A stretch of DNA of 64,000 nt from Caenimonas soli (GTDB lineage Bacteria; Pseudomonadota; Gammaproteobacteria; Burkholderiales; Burkholderiaceae_C). Shown piece by piece: positions 19,123-29,260 of this stretch. Made by a program: the position numbers and the translations under genes. Numbering within the stretch: position 1 is the stretch's first letter; each line of letters starts with the position of its first letter. The DNA lies in the NCBI RefSeq assembly GCF_013155545.1, contig NZ_JABJVV010000007.1, forward strand, positions 248,001 through 312,000. The letters are read 5' to 3'. The notes below the pieces were generated by a model. It made no database searches. It had not been told where the DNA came from and saw only the letters and a program-made list of their open reading frames with translations.

Positions 19123-19536
19123 ATGAGCCTCCTTCGCCCGAATCCGATGAATTCCAGGATGGCCGAGGGCGTGGGACGGGTCGGTTTCCGGAAGTGGTAT
19201 GAGCGGGAACTGCTGTCCAGTCACGCTTATCTGGTGCTGGCCTTTCTGAGCGTGATCGGCCTGATCGGTAGCATGGAAGCTTTCGGCTTGGGTTCCAACT
19301 ACGACAAGGTCACGAATGTCGTGTCCATCGTCGTTTGCGCCGTGGTGGGCGCCTGGTCATTGCGCCGTTATCTTTTCCTTCTAATGCGTGCTGAAGAAGT
19401 GGCGAACCAGGCCAATTGCTCAGCCTGTGGCGAGTATGGGCGCTTCACGGTCGTAGGGGAAGACAGAAGCCGTGCCGAAACCGAAGTTCGCTGCCGCAAG
19501 TGTTCCCATCGGTGGACGATCAGCGTCATCGACTGA
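19123..19536 (+). CDS. hypothetical membrane protein with C-terminal zinc-ribbon-like motif
   Basis: 137 residues, family not recognised. Two predicted membrane segments (about 35-52 and 64-88) are followed by a short tail with two cysteine pairs: Cys99/Cys102 (CSAC) and Cys124/Cys127 (CRKC), the spacing of a zinc ribbon, ending HRWTISVID. The tail probably faces the cytosol. The gene is divergent from rpsF and convergent with the symporter gene, from which it is separated by a terminator. An alternative start is Met9. A zinc-dependent folding or redox role can only be guessed. Confidence 0.65.
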   Translation: MSLLRPNPMNSRMAEGVGRVGFRKWYERELLSSHAYLVLAFLSVIGLIGSMEAFGLGSNYDKVTNVVSIVVCAVVGAWSLRRYLFLLMRAEEVANQANCSACGEYGRFTVVGEDRSRAETEVRCRKCSHRWTISVID

Positions 19537-19632: not shown

Positions 19633-21777
19633 TTACGTGGCCAAGCCGTGGATCTTGCTCTTGGCGGTGCCTTTCAGGCTGGGATAGCGCACGTGCTCCA
19701 CCAAGTCCTGGATCCGGGCGTTGGGGGCGGGCGTCACCAGGCTGACCAGGATGATGACCGCGAAGCCTAGCGGCACGCCGAACACCCCTGCCGAGATGGG
19801 CTGGATGCCCCACCAGAGTTCGATGGGCGAAGTCACGCCGAACACCCCGCGCAGCCAGGGCTGCGTCATCACCATGTAGTAGAGCGTGACTCCTAGGCCG
19901 GCCATCATGCCCAGCGACGCGGCGATGCCCGTGGCTCGTTTCCAGAAGATACCCAGGACCAGTGCCGGGAAGAACGACGCCGCCGCGAAGGAGAACGCCG
20001 CCGACACCAGGAACAAGATGTCCGCCGGTTTTTGCGCCGCAACCGCCGCAGCCGCGAGGGCCACTACCAGCAGCAGCATCTTGGACAGCGTCACCCGCCG
20101 TGCCGTGGAGGCATTCGGGTCGATCATCTTGTAGTACAGATCGTGGCTGAGGGCGTTGGCGATGGTCAGCAGCAGGCCGTCGGCAGTTGACAGCGCGGCT
20201 GCCAGGCCGCCGGCGGCCACCAGGCCGGAGATCACATAGGGCAGCCCACCGATTTCCGGGGTGGCCAGCACGACGATGTCGCCGCCGATGGTGATTTCGC
20301 CGATCTGCAGGATGCCGTCCTTGTTGAGGTCCACCACGTTCAGCAGGGTCGGGTCTACGCGCTGCCAGCTGGCGATCCACGCCGGTAGCTTGTCGAATGG
20401 TGTTCCCACCAGGACGTTGAACACCTCGTACTTCACCAGCACGGCCAGGGTCGGGGCCGTGAAATACAGCAGGAAGATGAAAAACAGCGACCAGGTCACC
20501 GAGTCCCGCGCTTCTTTCACGCTGGGGGTCGTGTAGTACCGCATCAGGATGTGCGGCAACGCCGCGGTGCCCACCATCAGGCAGAAGATCAGGGCCAGGA
20601 AGTTTCGCCGGGAGGTGTCGAAGGCGTCCTTGGCCTTGGGGTCGCCGTTCGGGTCGCCGGCGAACTGCTGCGCGTGGCGCGGCATGCCGCCCAACGGCTT
20701 GGCCCGGTTTTCTGCGGCGGTCTTGGCCGCGGTCCAGGTCTTCCTTGCCGCGGCCTCGTCCTTCGGCACCGCCGCAAGTTCCTTCTCGGCCGCCGTCAGC
20801 TGCGACGCCAAGGCGTTGTTGGCCTTGAGGTCGGCAACCTTCTTCTCTGCGGCAGCCCGGTCGGCAGCGAGGGCCGTCTTCGGGTCCTTCAGCTTTTCAC
20901 CCAGCGCCGCAGCGCGATCCGAATAGACCTTGATGACTTCCAGCTCCTTCGGATCCTTCATCAGCACGGCTTCTCGCGCGGTGACCTGCTCTAGCTTGTA
21001 CCCGTAAACCACTTGCGGAACCGGGACGTTGCTTTGCTTCATGCCCAACCAGATCACCGGGATCATGTAAGCAATGATCAGGATGATGTATTGCGCAACC
21101 TGAGTCCAGGTTACAGCGCGCATCCCGCCGAGGAACGAACACACCAAGATGCCGCCGAGGCCCAGGAAAATCCCGATCTCGAAGGCCACGCCCGTCAGCC
21201 GGGTGGTGATGATGCCCACGCCGTAGATCTGCGCCACCACATAGGTGAAGGAACACAGGATGGCCGCCACGATGCCTATGAAGCGCGGCAGGTTGCCGCC
21301 GTAGCGCTCGCCCAAGAAGTCGGGGATGGTGAACTGCCCGAATTTGCGCAGGTAGGGCGCGAGGAAAAGCGCGACCAGGCAGTAGCCGCCGGTCCAGCCC
21401 ATGATGAAGGCCAGGCCGCTGTAGCCAGTGAGGTACAAAGTGCCCGCCATGCCGATGAACGACGCGGCCGACATCCAGTCCGCCCCCGTGGCCATGCCGT
21501 TGTAGACGGCAGGGACGCGGCGACCGGCGACGTAGTATTCGGCGGCGTCCGTGGTCCGGCTCATGATGCCGATGCCGGCATACAAGCCGATGGTGGCAAG
21601 CAGGAAGATGAAACCGATCCACTCGCGTTTCAGCCCGAATTGCTCCAGGATGGCCAGCACGATCACGAAGGCGATGAATCCGCCCGTGTAGAACGCGTAG
21701 ACCTTGTTGAGTTGTTTGCGAAACGCCGCATTGGCGGCGGTGCCGGTGGCATTGGTGGAAGGTGAGAGCATGGCCAT
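19633..21777 (-). CDS. long sodium:solute symporter, VC_2705 subfamily (acetate/carboxylate-type)
   Basis: 714-residue SSS-family transporter, start ATG 21775-21777 two bases after the DUF4212 stop. About 13 membrane segments; SSS landmarks AGRRVPAVYNGMATGADWMSAASF (84-107), GWTGGYCLVALFLAPYLRK, FTYVVAQIYGVGIITTRL, and the sodium-site helix GGLAAALSTADGLLLTIANAL (523-543). Two insertions set it apart: a charged coiled-coil-like stretch at about 255-390, and a canonical EF-hand loop D483-L-N-K-D-G-I-L-Q-I-G-E494 just before TM8. Substrate is probably a short carboxylate such as acetate or pyruvate; ppsA two genes beyond its paralogue supports this, but it is inference. Confidence 0.9.
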   Translation of the reverse strand: MAMLSPSTNATGTAANAAFRKQLNKVYAFYTGGFIAFVIVLAILEQFGLKREWIGFIFLLATIGLYAGIGIMSRTTDAAEYYVAGRRVPAVYNGMATGADWMSAASFIGMAGTLYLTGYSGLAFIMGWTGGYCLVALFLAPYLRKFGQFTIPDFLGERYGGNLPRFIGIVAAILCSFTYVVAQIYGVGIITTRLTGVAFEIGIFLGLGGILVCSFLGGMRAVTWTQVAQYIILIIAYMIPVIWLGMKQSNVPVPQVVYGYKLEQVTAREAVLMKDPKELEVIKVYSDRAAALGEKLKDPKTALAADRAAAEKKVADLKANNALASQLTAAEKELAAVPKDEAAARKTWTAAKTAAENRAKPLGGMPRHAQQFAGDPNGDPKAKDAFDTSRRNFLALIFCLMVGTAALPHILMRYYTTPSVKEARDSVTWSLFFIFLLYFTAPTLAVLVKYEVFNVLVGTPFDKLPAWIASWQRVDPTLLNVVDLNKDGILQIGEITIGGDIVVLATPEIGGLPYVISGLVAAGGLAAALSTADGLLLTIANALSHDLYYKMIDPNASTARRVTLSKMLLLVVALAAAAVAAQKPADILFLVSAAFSFAAASFFPALVLGIFWKRATGIAASLGMMAGLGVTLYYMVMTQPWLRGVFGVTSPIELWWGIQPISAGVFGVPLGFAVIILVSLVTPAPNARIQDLVEHVRYPSLKGTAKSKIHGLAT

Positions 21778-21779
21778 GG

Positions 21780-22037
21780 TTATTCCTCCTCGGCGACGCC
21801 GAATTCCTGGTCCAGCTTGTTCATGTAGCGAGCGTAGTACCAGATGATCAGTACATAGATGATCAGTGCACCCTGAGCGCCCATCCAGAAGCTGAAGGGC
21901 CAACCGAAAAAGCGGAAGTTCAGGTCGCGGGCCATGTAGCCCACCACATAGGTCACCACGAACCATATAGCCATCAGGATGGCCGTGATGGTCAGGTTTT
22001 TCCGCCAGTACAGGCGGTGCCTTTCAGTTAGTTGCAT
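21780..22037 (-). CDS. DUF4212 small membrane subunit of sodium:solute symporter
   Basis: 85 residues with two membrane helices (LTITAILMAIWFVVTYVVGYM and SFWMGAQGALIIYVLIIWYYARYM), DUF4212 signature WRKNL and FRFFGWPFSFWM. The ATG at 22035-22037 has a GGAGA site; the longer frame upstream is not conserved-looking. Family members always precede the long symporters, and here the stop is 2 bases before the symporter start, so the pair is translationally coupled and probably forms one complex. Confidence 0.92.
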   Translation of the reverse strand: MQLTERHRLYWRKNLTITAILMAIWFVVTYVVGYMARDLNFRFFGWPFSFWMGAQGALIIYVLIIWYYARYMNKLDQEFGVAEEE

Positions 22038-22145
22038 GCCATTGTCTCCTTTGAACCCTTTAGCGGTCCTGGTTAGCTGCCACTCAGCGACCCTCCACCA
22101 CGAATGCAGTGGCCTGCAACGGGTCACACCTCGCAAAGTACCCTC

Positions 22146-23017: not shown

Positions 23018-23241
23018 CCTGTCTCCACTTTTTTGCGTTCATGCATGGTTCAAATCATGGCTTACTCATTCCTTACAACGGAGCCGGCTCGGACGTAAAC
23101 CCCCTCAGGGATTACCCGTCTGCGGCGGGCGAGGGATCGTTGCGCGTTTGCACTGCAGCCTATGACTGAGGTGAGACTCCCACTCGACGGCTGCAGGTCA
23201 TCTACTTACACTGAACTGACAAAACATTCGGGGGCAACGTG

Positions 23242-23742
23242 ATGCAGAAGAACCTCGTCTATCACAAGTCGGCCAAAGGCACGGAAGCCATCTCGACGCG
23301 CCAGCACGGGTTGACTCCCAAACTGCGCTCGATGCTGATACTGGTCGACGGCAAGCGGAGCTTAGAGGATCTGGCCAAACTTTCCCAGCTGAACGACACC
23401 GAGCAGTTGTTGGGCCACTTGCTTGATCAGGGCTTCATCGAACCTGGGGCAGCCGCGGTGCCCATTGCTCCCGTCTCGTCCGCCCCCGCCCCGCTTGCGG
23501 CCGCCACCGGGCAGCGCGCGACCAGCCTGACGGAAGCTCAGCGCTTCGCGGTGCGCCGGCTGACGGACGTCATGGGACCGAACGCCGAGGAGCTTTGCCT
23601 GCGAATAGAGGCGGCGCGTAACGTCCATGATTTGCAGGTGGCCGTGGCAAGGGCTGAAGGCACATTGCGCCAATTCGTCAATTCGCACACCGCGGCGCAG
23701 TTCATGGCCGACATCCAGGCCCACATGCCCGCGGCCTCCTAG
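23242..23742 (+). CDS. conserved hypothetical protein, possible N-terminal winged helix
   Basis: 166 residues from ATG 23242 (a GTG immediately before is an alternative). The N-terminal 65 residues (GLTPKLRSMLILVDGKRSLEDLAKLSQLNDTEQLLGHLLDQGFIE) look like a small winged-helix or HTH-like helical domain, then an Ala/Pro linker (75-95), then a helical C-terminal domain (RRLTDVMGPNAEELCLRIEAARNVHDLQVAVARAEGTLRQFV). No known family is recognised. It is the only plus-strand gene in the symporter cluster and shares a CTAG with the symporter stop (convergent 4-base overlap). Confidence 0.7.
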   Translation: MQKNLVYHKSAKGTEAISTRQHGLTPKLRSMLILVDGKRSLEDLAKLSQLNDTEQLLGHLLDQGFIEPGAAAVPIAPVSSAPAPLAAATGQRATSLTEAQRFAVRRLTDVMGPNAEELCLRIEAARNVHDLQVAVARAEGTLRQFVNSHTAAQFMADIQAHMPAAS

Positions 23743-25793
23743 TCGGCGCGCAAGGTCAGCAAGCTCACGATGAAGGCGACCGCGAAGCCCGCTGCGACGC
23801 CGAAAACGCCCGCCGACAGCGGCACGATGCCAAACCATAGCTGGGGATCCGGCGACAGCTTGAGAAAAGCCCTGATCGTCGGCGAGTTGACCAGCATGTA
23901 GTAGATCGTGATCCCCAGCCCGGACAGCATGCCGGCAACCGCTCCGGCGCGTGTGGCGCCCTTCCAGAAAATGCCCAGCACCATGGCGGGCACGAAGGCC
24001 GAGGCTGCCAACGAGAATGAAGCGGAAACCAGCGGCAGGATGTCGGCGGGCTTGAGCGAGGCCACCATCGCGGCCACCAACGCCACCGCCAGCAGGGCAA
24101 ACTTGGACAGGATCACCCGCTGTTCGGGCGTGACGTGGTGGCTGATTTCCTGGGAATACACGTCACGGACCATCGCATTGCTGATGGTGAGCAGCAAGCC
24201 GTCCGCCGTGGACAGGGCCGCCGCCAGCCCTCCCGCCGCCACGAGGCCGGACACCACGTAAGGCATGCCGCCGATCTCGGGTGTCGCCAGCATGATGATG
24301 TCGGCGCCCAGCCGGATTTCGCCGAACTGGACGATCCCGTCGCCATTGACGTCGCTCACCGAGATGAGGGAAGCATCCACCTTGCCCCATTGAAGGATCC
24401 AGGACGGCAGCGCATCGAAGCTGCTGCCCACCAGGCTTTGCATCACTTCGTACTTCACCAGCACGGCTAGGGCGGGCACGCTCAGGTACAGCAAGGCGAT
24501 GAAGAACAGGGCCCAGCCGACCGAGGACCGGGCCTCGGCCACGGTGGGGGTGGTATAGAAGCGCGTCAACAGGTGGGGCAGGCCCGCCGTCCCGACCATC
24601 AGGCAGAAAATCAACGCCAGGTAGTTGCGGCGCGACAGATCGAAAAGCTCCTGCTGCTCGGGAGTGCCGTCGGGGTCACCGGCAAAGGCCTGTCCGTGCG
24701 GCAGCAGCCCGCCCAGGGGCTTGGCCCGCTCATGGCTTTCGTGCATGGCTCGGGTCCAGAGTTCGCGCGCTCCCGTTTCCGTGCGCGGCAGCGCAGCCAG
24801 TTCGCGGTTGGCCGCAACGATGTGGGCCGAGTCGGCGTTCTGCGCCTTGAGCTGGCGGATCCGTTGCTGGGCGGCCGCGCGCTCGCGTTGAAGCGAGCCT
24901 TCGATGTCCGACAGGCGCGCCTGGTATTCGGCCGCCCTTCGCTTGTACTCCGCCTGCACCTGCTTCTCGGCCGGAGAATCCATCAAGGTCTTCTCGATCT
25001 CGGTGATCTTCTGCAGTTGCTTGCCATAGACCAGCGGCGCCAGGGGGTTGCCCAACTGCTTGTAGGCCAGCCACGACACCGGGATCAGGAACGCCAGCAG
25101 CAATATCACGTATTGGGCGACCTGGGTCCAGGTGATGGCGCGCATGCCGCCGAGGAAGGAGCAAAGGAGCACGCCGCCCAGACCAAGCAGGATGCCGATC
25201 TCGAACTGCACGCCGGTCAGGCGCGAAGCGATCAGTCCGATGCCGTAGATCTGGGCCACGACGTAGGTGAACGAGCACAACATCGCGGAGAAAGCGGCGA
25301 TCAGCCGGGGCCAGCGCCCGCCATACCTGGCCGCGAAATAGTCGGGCACCGTGTACAGGCCGAGCTGGCGCAGGTAAGGCGCCACCAGCAGCGCGACCAG
25401 GCAGAAGCCGCCGGTCCAGCCCAGCACATAAGCCAGCCCACCGGGATGCGTTGCCGAGCCCGAGAAGCCCTGGAGGTAGAGCCCGCCGGCGAGGCTGATG
25501 AAGGAGGCCGCACTCATCCAGTCGGCGGCCGCCGCCATGCCGTTGTACATGGGCGGGATGCGCCGGCCGGCCACGTAGTACTCCTCGGGATCGGTCGTGC
25601 GGCCGTAGATGCCGATGGCGGCGTAGATCATCACCGTGGAAAACAGGAAGATCGGTCCCAACCAGTGGCGCGAAAGTCCGTTGCGCTCGGCCCAGGCCAT
25701 GAGGCCCAGAACAACGCACAGGCCCACGACGTACAGCGTGAGAATGCGTGCAAGCCGCTGCTTGTACGCGGCGTAGTCGCGGTTATCGCCCAT
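23739..25793 (-). CDS. second long sodium:solute symporter, VC_2705 subfamily
   Basis: 684-residue paralogue of the symporter at 19633-21777, with the same landmarks: AGRRIPPMYNGMAAAADWMSAASF (75-98), GWTGGFCLVALLVAPYLRQ, FTYVVAQIYGIGLIASRL, and GGLAAALSTADGLLLTISNA (521-540). It also carries the charged insert (about 255-388) and an EF-hand loop D481-V-N-G-D-G-I-V-Q-F-G-E492. The start is uncertain: ATG 25791-25793 (MGDNRDYAAYKQ) aligns with the paralogue but has no close Shine-Dalgarno; the frame is open to 25850. No DUF4212 gene accompanies it. ppsA lies upstream on the same strand, 68 bases away. Confidence 0.88.
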   Translation of the reverse strand: MGDNRDYAAYKQRLARILTLYVVGLCVVLGLMAWAERNGLSRHWLGPIFLFSTVMIYAAIGIYGRTTDPEEYYVAGRRIPPMYNGMAAAADWMSAASFISLAGGLYLQGFSGSATHPGGLAYVLGWTGGFCLVALLVAPYLRQLGLYTVPDYFAARYGGRWPRLIAAFSAMLCSFTYVVAQIYGIGLIASRLTGVQFEIGILLGLGGVLLCSFLGGMRAITWTQVAQYVILLLAFLIPVSWLAYKQLGNPLAPLVYGKQLQKITEIEKTLMDSPAEKQVQAEYKRRAAEYQARLSDIEGSLQRERAAAQQRIRQLKAQNADSAHIVAANRELAALPRTETGARELWTRAMHESHERAKPLGGLLPHGQAFAGDPDGTPEQQELFDLSRRNYLALIFCLMVGTAGLPHLLTRFYTTPTVAEARSSVGWALFFIALLYLSVPALAVLVKYEVMQSLVGSSFDALPSWILQWGKVDASLISVSDVNGDGIVQFGEIRLGADIIMLATPEIGGMPYVVSGLVAAGGLAAALSTADGLLLTISNAMVRDVYSQEISHHVTPEQRVILSKFALLAVALVAAMVASLKPADILPLVSASFSLAASAFVPAMVLGIFWKGATRAGAVAGMLSGLGITIYYMLVNSPTIRAFLKLSPDPQLWFGIVPLSAGVFGVAAGFAVAFIVSLLTLRAD

Positions 25794-25861
25794 TATTCTG
25801 TGGAAGCTCCTCGGTGCGCGCATCATCGCACCGAGGCCGCCGCCGGCCAACAGGGTATGCG

Positions 25862-28255
25862 CTAGCGGCCGGCGAGTTGCTGCCAGGTCGTGATCACGCT
25901 GTCCGGATTGAGGGAGATCGAGGAAATACCCTCATCCGCCAGCCACTGCGCGAAGTCCGGGTGGTCGCTGGGGCCCTGCCCACAGATCCCGACGTACTTG
26001 CCCTGGGCCTTGCACGCCGAGATGGCGCGAGTGAGCAGCGCCTTCACGGCGGGATCGCGCTCGTCGAAATCCGCAGCGAGCAGTTCCAGCCCCGAGTCGC
26101 GGTCCAGGCCCAGCGTGAGCTGGGTCAGGTCGTTGGAGCCGATGGAGAAACCGTCGAAGTACTTCAGGAACTCGTCGGCCAGGATGGCGTTGCTGGGCAC
26201 TTCGCACATCATGATGACCTTCAAGTCGGCCTCGCCGCGCTTCAGGCCATGCTGGGCCAGCAGTTGCGTGACCTTGTCGGCCTGCCCCAACGTACGCACG
26301 AACGGCACCATGACCTGCACGTTGGTCAGGCCCATGTCGTTGCGCACGCGGCGCAGCGCCTCGCATTCCATCGCGAACGCCTCCTTGAATTCGCCGCTGA
26401 TGTAGCGCGCCGCGCCACGGAAGCCGAGCATCGGATTCTCTTCCTCGGGCTCGTAGCGCGAGCCGCCAATGAGCTTGCGGTACTCGTTGGACTTGAAGTC
26501 CGAGAGGCGCACGATCACCGGCTTGGGCCAGAAGGCGGCGGCGATGGTCGCCACGCCTTCGGCCACCTTGTCCACGTAGAAGGCCCGGGGCGATGCGTGG
26601 CCGCGGGCCACGGATTCAACCGCCTTCTTGAGGTCGGCATCGACGTTGGGATAGTCGAGGATGGCCTTGGGGTGCACCCCGATGTTGTTGTTGATGATGA
26701 ATTCCAGCCGCGCCAGGCCCACGCCTTCGTTGGGCAGCTGAGCGAAGTCGAAGGCCAGCTGGGGATTGCCCACGTTCATCATGATCTTGGTCTTGATGCT
26801 GGGCATCTCGCCGCGCTGCACCTCGCTGACCTCGGTCTCCAGCAGGCCGTCGTAGATGAAGCCGGTATCGCCCTCGGCGCAGCTCACCGTCACCAGCGTG
26901 CCCTCGCGCAGCAATTCGGTCGCATCGCCGCAGCCGACCACCGCCGGGATGCCCAGCTCGCGGGCGATGATGGCGGCGTGGCAGGTGCGGCCGCCTCGGT
27001 TGGTGACGATGGCGCTGGCGCGCTTCATCACCGGCTCCCAATTGGGATCGGTCATGTCGGTCACCAGCACATCACCGGCCTGGACCTTGTCCATCTCCGA
27101 AATGTTGTGCACCAGGCGCACCGGGCCGGTGCCGATCTTCTGGCCGATGGCCCGCCCTTCGGCCAGTACGTTACCGCGGCCCTTGAGCTTGTAGCGCATC
27201 TCGGCCTTGCCCTGCTGCTGGCTCTTCACCGTTTCGGGACGGGCCTGCAGGATGTAGATGTGGCCATCGGTGCCGTCCTTGCCCCACTCGATGTCCATAG
27301 GACGGCCGTAATGGCGCTCGATAACCAAGGCGTAGCGGGCCAGCTCTTCCACCTCGGTATCGGTCAGCGAATAGCGGTTGCGCTGCTCCAGCGGAACGTC
27401 GGTGGTCTTCACGAGCTTGCCGGTGGCGGCCCGTTCGTCGGCGCCGGCGAACACCATCTGGATCAGCTTGGACCCCAGGTTACGGCGGATCACTGCGCGC
27501 TTGCCCGCGGCCAGCATGGGCTTGTGCACATAGAACTCGTCGGGGTTCACCGCGCCCTGCACCACCGTTTCGCCCAGGCCATAGCTGGAGGTGATGAACA
27601 CGACTTCCTGGAAACCCGATTCGGTGTCGATGGTGAACATCACGCCCGCGGCGCCCAGGTCGCTGCGCACCATGCGCTGCACGCCCGCCGACAAGGCCAC
27701 GTCGGAATGCGCGAAGCCCTTGTGGACGCGGTAGCTGATGGCGCGGTCGTTGTACAGGGAGGCGAACACCTCCTTCATCTTGTGCAGCACTTCTTCGATG
27801 CCCACCACGTTCAGGAAGGTCTCCTGCTGGCCGGCGAACGAGGCATCGGGAAGGTCTTCCGCCGTGGCCGATGAACGGACGGCGAAGCTCGCCTGCTTGT
27901 TCTCGCCCGACAATGTGACGAACGCCTCGCGGATCGCTTTTTCCAGGTCCGCCGGAAACGGCTGGGCCTCGATCCAGGAGCGAATCTCCGCGCCAGCGAC
28001 GGCCAGGGCCCGAACGTCCTCGGTGTCGAGCGTACTCAGCCGCGCGCTGATTCGTTGCGCCAGCCCGGCGTGGGCGAGGAACTGGCGGAAGGCGTGCGCG
28101 GTCGTGGCAAAACCCGTTGGGACGCGCACGCCCTGGGGTAGCTGGGAGATCATCTCGCCGAGGCTGGCGTTCTTGCCGCCGACCGCCTCGACATCGCTCA
28201 TTCTCAGGTTTTCAAACGGAACGACCAGGGCGGTCGCGCTGAAAAGTGCAGACAT
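25862..28255 (-). CDS. ppsA: phosphoenolpyruvate synthase
   Basis: 797 residues, standard length. N-terminal ATP-grasp domain ([53 protein letters not shown]), central phosphohistidine domain with the catalytic His in [23 protein letters not shown], and C-terminal PEP/pyruvate TIM-barrel ending with the conserved [19 protein letters not shown]. Converts pyruvate + ATP to PEP + AMP + Pi for gluconeogenesis on acids such as pyruvate, lactate or acetate. Start ATG with GGAG site. The regulator ppsR is divergent; two carboxylate-type symporters follow on the same strand. Confidence 0.98.
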
Positions 28256-28438: not shown

Positions 28439-29260
28439 ATGCACACCCGCACCGTTTTCTACATCTCCGACGGCACCGGCATCACCGCAGAAACCTTCGG
28501 AAACGCCATCCTGGCGCAGTTCGAGTTCAAGCCCCGCCACGTTCGCCTGCCTTTCATCGACAGCGTGGACAAGGCGCACCAGGTGGTGCGGCAGGTCAAC
28601 CACACCGCGGAGATCGAGGGCCGCAAACCCATCGTCTTCACCACGCTGGTGAATGCGGAAATCCTGCAGGTTATCGAAAACGGCTGCAAGGGAATGCTGC
28701 TGGACATGTTCGGAACCTTCGTGCGGCCGCTGGAAATCGAGCTGGCGATCAAGTCCAACCACCGCATCGGGCGATTCTCGGACGTGAGCAAGAGCAAGGA
28801 ATATCACGACCGTATCGAAGCCATCAACTTCAGCCTGGCCCACGACGACGGGCAGTCCAATCGCGACCTGGAGCAGGCCGACGTGATCCTGGTGGGCGTG
28901 AGCCGCAGCGGCAAGACCCCCACTTCGCTGTACCTGGCGATGCAATATGGCCTGAAGGCCGCCAACTACCCCCTCATTCCCGAGGACTTCGAGCGCCAGC
29001 AGCTGCCTACGGCGCTGGTGCCGCACCGCAAGAAGATCTTCGGCCTGACCATCCAGCCCGAGCGCCTGGCCGAGATCCGCAACGAGCGGCGCCCCAACTC
29101 GCGCTACGCGGCCCTGGAGAACTGCCGCATGGAAGTCGGCGAAGCGGAGGCTATGATGCGCCGGGCCGGCATCCGCTGGCTCAGCACCACCACCAAGTCC
29201 ATCGAAGAGATCGCCACCACGATCCTGCAGGAAATCCGGCCCGAGCGGCTGGAGTACTGA
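28439..29260 (+). CDS. ppsR: PEP synthase regulatory protein (bifunctional kinase/pyrophosphorylase)
   Basis: 273-residue DUF299 protein. Signatures: [23 protein letters not shown] at the N-terminus, P-loop [32 protein letters not shown] near residue 155. It phosphorylates and dephosphorylates the Thr next to the catalytic His of PEP synthase, using ADP and Pi. Divergent from its target ppsA (183-base gap), the usual arrangement. Confidence 0.97.

Follow-up and report, generated by a model that had tools for sequence, protein, structure and literature searches.

A Dx[DN]xDG calcium-type loop in EL4 of VC_2705-family sodium/solute symporters and its replacement by a Cys pair in one branch

The window, by which we mean the whole 64,000-nucleotide stretch of Caenimonas soli DNA that was analyzed, encodes a VC_2705-family sodium/solute symporter with a Dx[DN]xDG calcium-type loop in EL4. 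The loop itself, the ligand-specific conservation seen across the family, its place in EL4 of a confident model and its mutually exclusive replacement by a Cys pair in one branch were established by computation. We regard as new the setting of this known type of calcium loop and its exchange, specific to one lineage, for a Cys pair. On balance we favor the reading that the loop binds Ca2+ in the periplasm and serves, at the EL4 tip, as a structural clamp.

The symporter gene and its neighbors

The symporter, its small subunit and a tandem paralogue are encoded on the minus strand. The features of this part of the window are as follows.

19636..21777, minus strand: VC_2705-family (TIGR03648) sodium/solute symporter, large subunit, 714 aa (TIGR03648, PF00474)
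20296..20331, minus strand: Dx[DN]xDG calcium-type loop DLNKDGILQIGE, residues 483-494 (translation, alignment, model)
21783..22046 (stretch scanned), minus strand: small subunit, DUF4212 (PF13937, 99.2 bits, cut-off 30)
23742..25817 (scanned stretch; true start +/- a few codons), minus strand: tandem large-subunit paralogue (TIGR03648, 676.9 bits)
24318..24353, minus strand: the paralogue's loop DVNGDGIVQFGE, in the same place as in the 714-aa symporter (translation, alignment)
25865-28255, minus strand: PEP-synthase-type gene (Pfam scan)
28439-29257, plus strand: kinase-pyrophosphorylase family gene, divergent (Pfam scan)

With 796.4 bits against the NCBIfam profile TIGR03648 (cut-off 320.75) the 714-aa protein is a full family member, and its PF00474 match reaches 189.8 bits. 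It shares the family, the loop and an adjoining small-subunit gene with the TIGR03648 / VC_2705 symporters that have a DUF4212 subunit, and its domain make-up does not differ from theirs. The DUF4212 frame lies directly upstream of the large subunit, with 2 bases between the end of the frame and the symporter start; the likely start Met of the small subunit is three codons inside the scanned stretch. The paralogue, 58% identical to the 714-aa symporter and about two kilobases away on the same strand, has kept the loop and is flanked by a 167-aa ORF and the PEP-synthase-type gene; unlike the VC_2705 symporters that have a DUF4212 subunit, it has no DUF4212 small-subunit gene directly adjoining it within the window. 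The 167-aa ORF (23239-23742, plus strand) has no Pfam match. A 137-aa ORF at 19123-19536 (plus strand), for which the Pfam scan also gave no match, is hydrophobic in its N-terminal part and carries a zinc-ribbon-like motif of four cysteines, CSAC...CRKC, in its C-terminal part.

Members of the kinase-pyrophosphorylase family are regulators of PEP synthase in other bacteria. Because of the PEP-synthase-type and kinase-pyrophosphorylase neighbors, and because the next-best family matches of the symporter are monocarboxylate and acetate symporters, the substrate is likely a small organic acid, e.g. pyruvate, lactate or acetate. The words symporter and DUF4212 do not occur in the excerpted text of PMC9007349.

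An earlier note on this DNA had placed a calcium loop at 20296-20331, directly before the sodium-site helix of the symporter. Both points hold, as DLNKDGILQIGE forms residues 483-494 of the 714-aa frame and GGLAAALSTADGLLL lies downstream, with 28 residues from the loop end to GGL. When the protein was shuffled 20,000 times with its composition preserved, D-x-[DNS]-x-D-G-x-hydrophobic-x3-E, the full pattern, arose in two shuffles and the core Dx[DN]xDG in 75; a chance motif is ruled out by the family-wide conservation described below.

Position of the loop in the transporter

The AlphaFold2 model of the symporter, built from a 68-sequence alignment and holding no ion, has a mean pLDDT of 93.3 and a pTM of 0.92, with values of 98 and 96 for the blocks containing the loop. 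In the model TM7 (residues 420-456) is followed by EL4a, a strand, the loop, a second strand, EL4b and TM8, where the names TM7, EL4 and TM8 follow the LeuT scheme by homology.

20356..20382, minus strand: EL4a helix, residues 466-474 (AlphaFold2 model)
20335..20343, minus strand: predicted strand into the loop, residues 479-481 (AlphaFold2/DSSP)
20287..20295, minus strand: predicted strand out of the loop, residues 495-497 (AlphaFold2/DSSP)
20251..20274, minus strand: EL4b helix, residues 502-509 (AlphaFold2 model)
20122..20238, minus strand: LeuT-scheme TM8, residues 514-552 (vSGLT alignment and AlphaFold2 model)

Within residues 483-494 the model contains a bridge residue, 489, and one helical turn, 492-494. 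In fold comparison with the PDB, SSS/SLC5 transporters come first, with Z values of 36.8 for outward-facing CHT1, 35.1 for SiaT, 31.5 for SGLT2, 31.1 for NIS, 28.6 for SMCT1 and 24.7 for vSGLT, in Foldseek and VIA lists that show the fold and give no detail on EL4. The overall fold is common to the symporter and the SLC5/SSS structures of SiaT, vSGLT, SGLT1/2, NIS, CHT1 and SMCT1. At E 0.001 the symporter matches 16 distinct PDB sequences, all bearing the names of other SSS/SLC5 proteins and none that of a VC_2705 member, and in the vSGLT alignments shown the significant match stops before EL4 and picks up again at TM8. In the sequence alignment, query residue 512 corresponds to vSGLT residue 346, and hence S530 to vSGLT residue 364. 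We take the latter to be one Na2 serine, so that S530/T531 presumably fall on the serines of the vSGLT Na2 site. From the order of elements in the model, the fold matches and the vSGLT alignment, the loop is predicted to lie at the EL4 tip, between EL4a and EL4b, and by homology on the periplasmic side. The same three lines bear out the assignment to EL4, the outer lid, that had been proposed from the letters of the sequence.

Elsewhere in the model, a helical insert of ~125 residues is seen between LeuT-scheme TM5 and TM6 (20638-21018, minus strand, residues 254-380). This insert, by homology EL3 and periplasmic, is modeled confidently (pLDDT blocks 95-98) and is confined to long members, those of ~570 aa being too short for it.

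Conservation of the loop and the Cys-pair branch

A sample of 398 Pseudomonadota genomes, with at most three candidates scored per genome, gave 127 proteins over the TIGR03648 cut-off, from 122 of the genomes, and all 127 were read, the window's two included. In their alignment the Asp at position 1 is kept in 121/127, the Asn at position 3 in 121/127 (with Asp in two more), the Asp at position 5 in 123/127 and the Gly at position 6 in 125/127, and position 12 is Glu in 121, the others having Asp (three), Asn, Gly and a gap (one each). The entropy is 0.25-0.36 bits at D1, N3, D5 and E12 and 0.13 at G6, and 1.3-2.6 bits at positions 2, 4 and 7-11. When scored by pattern, D-x-[ND]-x-D-[GHR] is present in EL4 of 121 of the 127 proteins, 119 of them with Gly; the remaining six comprise four in which a Cys pair replaces the loop and two with neither (L139 and L159). 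The distal Glu is present in 120 of the 121 loop-bearing proteins, with Gly in the exception, L141. Thus the check on positions 1, 3, 5, 6 and 12 that the earlier note had suggested finds them kept in 121-125 of the 127 proteins, and the loss of acidic ligands from most orthologues, which would have spoken against its proposal, is not seen, the ligands being kept in most.

The distance to the distal Glu is far less constant than the ligands. The canonical 12-residue spacing of EF-hands occurs in 25 of the 121 loop-bearing proteins (16 by pattern and nine by eye, the 12 rows missed by the pattern having been read by eye), and in 95 (93 by pattern and two by eye) an insert of about 5-62 residues precedes the Glu, so that the distance from G6 to the distal Glu ranges within the family from 5 to 67 residues. 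Because the Glu stands at the canonical distance in only these 25 proteins and past an insert in 95, the conserved unit is, by alignment, D-x-N-x-D-G with a later Glu and no fixed 12-mer; that this Glu is a ligand in the 95 insert-bearing proteins likewise rests on the alignment. The counts are based on the 127 proteins, since the same-family set (30 loci) and the named set (80 listed) are top-scoring picks. Both sets point the same way. Among the top-scoring same-family loci, D1, N3, D5 and E12 are present in 29/29 and G6 in 28/29. Among the matches listed, 74 of the 80 named loci have strict Dx[ND]xDG, five have Asn, His or Arg for G6, and one (L260) is assigned to the loop class in the 257-row alignment described below; of the 74 strict loci listed, four have Gly and three (L300, L305 and L306) Asp at position 12.

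Departures from the full ligand set are few. L139 lacks D1 and N3 (E-x-I-x-D), L159, barely above the family cut-off, has no loop, and G6 is missing in L151 and L158 as well as in the five named loci, among the matches listed, mentioned above. In L294, L297, L299 and L303, all from Caballeronia, and in L141 the segment reads DVNGDGIVRW(A/S)GI, with Gly for the distal Glu and D1, N3, D5 and G6 intact, which may represent a natural weakening of the presumed site. Because a few members of the fold family lack the full ligands, the site is, to judge from their sequences, not indispensable everywhere.

On these alignments the loop is a trait of the VC_2705 family, with nothing special to the protein in the window. 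A trait of the window's genus only was rejected, as the loop is found in Alpha- and Gammaproteobacteria (4/4 named loci fetched, L307-L310), in many named Burkholderiales and in L306. The latter, from a Chloroherpetonaceae MAG, is a member ~50% identical that carries DKNGDGVVQFAD, with Asp at position 12, and is the only non-Pseudomonadota member among the matches listed with a taxon given. A general feature of SSS proteins was also rejected, as seven relatives below the family cut-off (L001 and L161-L166) lack the loop; L160, which at 281 bits also falls short of the cut-off, shows a partial DxNxDN and is included in the 227 loop-type rows given below. A tblastn search of plasmids with the window protein at E 1e-60 gave nothing; searches that started from two relatives yielded 46 and 36 records.

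In four of the 127 proteins (L147, L148, L155 and L156) a Cys pair is found and the loop is absent. The two taxonomic families that hold this type were sampled further, with 121 genomes giving 22 proteins over the cut-off (15 + 7); 19 are Cys-type, including three genes already seen (L147, L148 and L155), two are loop-type (L197 and L198), and one, L181, is not counted as Cys-type, its contig stopping after the first Cys. L204, below the family cut-off, has the Cys pair too. Altogether 257 rows were aligned, comprising 227 loop-type (pattern D-x-[ND]-x-D-[GNHR]), 24 Cys-type and six with neither. The spacing is exactly C-x13-C in 24/24 Cys-type rows; since three genes are each represented by two rows, the number of different segments is 21. 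No Cys occurs in the EL4 segment of any of the 227 loop-type rows, and D-x-[ND]-x-D occurs in none of the 24 Cys-type rows.

The model of the Cys-type protein L176 (mean pLDDT 87.9, pTM 0.89) retains both strands (374-376 and 406-408), the bridge residue (400) and the helical turn (403-405). C377 is positioned immediately past the first strand and C391 in a short inserted helix, 384-392, that occupies the place of D-x-N-x-D. In a 57-row tree calculated without the EL4 columns, the four Cys-type rows group as a single clade (support 93) with loop-type L145 as sister (support 84), nested in the loop-type family. The tree is a quick one, its support is moderate and some of its branches are long. 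A small-subunit match by tblastn is present in the flanks of 124/137 loop-type and 18/20 Cys-type loci, some of the loci being incomplete. The Cys-x13-Cys pair is probably a disulfide that would do the job of the loop. In three Cys-type proteins (L172, L178 and L180) another two cysteines stand close together upstream of those in EL4, five residues apart at residues 273-280, and by position belong to the EL3 region.

Loop type and candidate role

The loop had been described from the letters as a canonical EF-hand through which Ca2+ might gate or stabilize the lid. The part of that interpretation that stands is a calcium-type loop in EL4 with conserved ligands; the canonical EF-hand does not stand, and the gating finds no support. 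In common with calmodulin-type EF-hands, this protein has the 12-residue pattern D1-N3-D5-G6-hydrophobic8-E12, but it differs from them in lacking both flanking helices in the model and a second Dx[DN]xDG in the symporter. The loop is modeled as strand-loop-strand, flanked by residues 479-481 and 495-497 with no helix-loop-helix, its 36-aa segment scores 12.1 bits against Pfam EF-hand_5 (cut-off 25.9), and no Pfam EF-hand match is obtained for the 51-aa segment or the whole protein. Membership of the EF-hand family is ruled out by the strand flanks and the EF-hand_5 score, and the spacing found in 25/121 proteins is at odds with a canonical EF-hand as well. Judged on alignment and model together, the loop type is that of the Dx[DN]xDG calcium loops, as both the motif (121/127) and a later acidic residue (Glu in 120/121) are conserved in the homologues.

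In the excerpted text of Rigden et al. 2011 (PMC3123361), the Dx[DN]xDG calcium-binding element is described from 16 structural contexts. One or more additional ligands always follow it in the sequence, at a distance of 2-112 residues, and plentiful extracellular Ca2+ is suggested there to ease the fixing of the motif. The symporter loop resembles the loops described there in motif spacing, the Asn at position 3, a distal acid at variable distance, non-helical flanks and an extracytoplasmic location, the last by homology. It differs from the contexts in that excerpt in lying in EL4 of an integral-membrane transporter; the words transporter and symporter are absent from the main text of PMC3123361. 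The spread of distal spacing, 5 to 67, is moreover contained in one family in the symporter, whereas that in the excerpted PMC3123361 is across families. Another LeuT-fold protein with a metal site on EL4, according to the excerpted text of PMC5354487, is the human dopamine transporter, whose allosteric Zn2+ site has ligands in EL2, EL4A and EL4B. That site is a tetrahedral Zn2+ site with His ligands that links EL2 to EL4, in contrast to the acidic linear loop within EL4 of the symporter. No description of the loop was found in the open-licence literature, to which the search was confined.

We read the loop as a Ca2+ site because it fits each point of the Dx[DN]xDG description in the excerpted PMC3123361, and the replacement by cysteines points to a role in pinning the hairpin between EL4a and EL4b. 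In the favored clamp, one Ca2+ would be held by D483, N485, D487, the backbone carbonyl of 489 and E494, tying together the strands that follow EL4a and precede EL4b. At millimolar external Ca2+ the site would always be filled, which would keep the hairpin of the lid rigid and allow EL4b to dock when the transporter closes, EL4 presumably being the lid over the substrate path as in LeuT-fold symporters. In the Cys-x13-Cys branch a probable disulfide would take the role of the clamp. We infer that the ion is Ca2+ and is bound all the time, that the two cysteines are joined by a disulfide, and that the role is mechanical.

The same loop could instead act as a gate, with external Ca2+ going on and off in the physiological range and thereby switching or tuning uptake. 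Its location, joining EL4a to EL4b ahead of the Na+-site helix, would suit such a gate, as would the allosteric effect of the EL4A/EL4B/EL2 Zn2+ site on the human dopamine transporter (excerpted text of PMC5354487), but a disulfide can pin the hairpin and cannot sense Ca2+, and we consider gating unlikely for this reason. In its model the Cys-pair branch otherwise keeps the EL4 hairpin, the small-subunit gene still flanks 18/20 of its loci, a permanent bond could not report Ca2+, and the variable insert ahead of the Glu also fits a static site. The Ca2+-gated lid of the earlier note finds no support, and the Cys-pair swap suggests that the loop acts as a structural clamp, a static one being favored over a sensor because a likely disulfide stands in for the metal site. 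A metal-controlled lid, for which external Ca2+ would be needed for closure and uptake would follow Ca2+, with one branch under redox or thiol control via the disulfide, appears rather improbable to us.

A turn without metal, in which the Asx turns of D-x-N-x-D-G would cap the hairpin and conservation would reflect folding only, seems a little less probable still. Turns rich in Asp, Asn and Gly can be structural, and AlphaFold2 is confident on the loop with no ion; such a turn, however, would need no distal Glu, yet the Glu persists past inserts as long as ~60 residues, and conservation is concentrated at positions 1, 3 and 5, at 6 and at the distal Glu and much weaker at 2, 4, 7, 9 and 11. 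Least probable of all, in our view, is that a different cation (Mg2+, Mn2+ or a third coupling Na+) is bound by the loop and participates in transport. By homology, transport in this family is coupled to Na+, and Asp at position 12, which leans to Mg2+ in EF-hands, is present in a few members (L300, L305 and L306). The distal Glu in 121/127 proteins, combined with Gly6 and a hydrophobic position 8, is, however, the Ca2+ pattern, and two cysteines are hardly a substitute for a coupling-ion site.

The family is widespread, with a member over the cut-off in 122/398 of the sampled Pseudomonadota genomes. If the site binds Ca2+, assays of family members in buffers with EDTA or other chelators may be probing a lid that has come loose. 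A conserved calcium-type site in the lid, together with a natural swap for cysteines, offers a direct handle on the rigidity of EL4 in the transport cycle.
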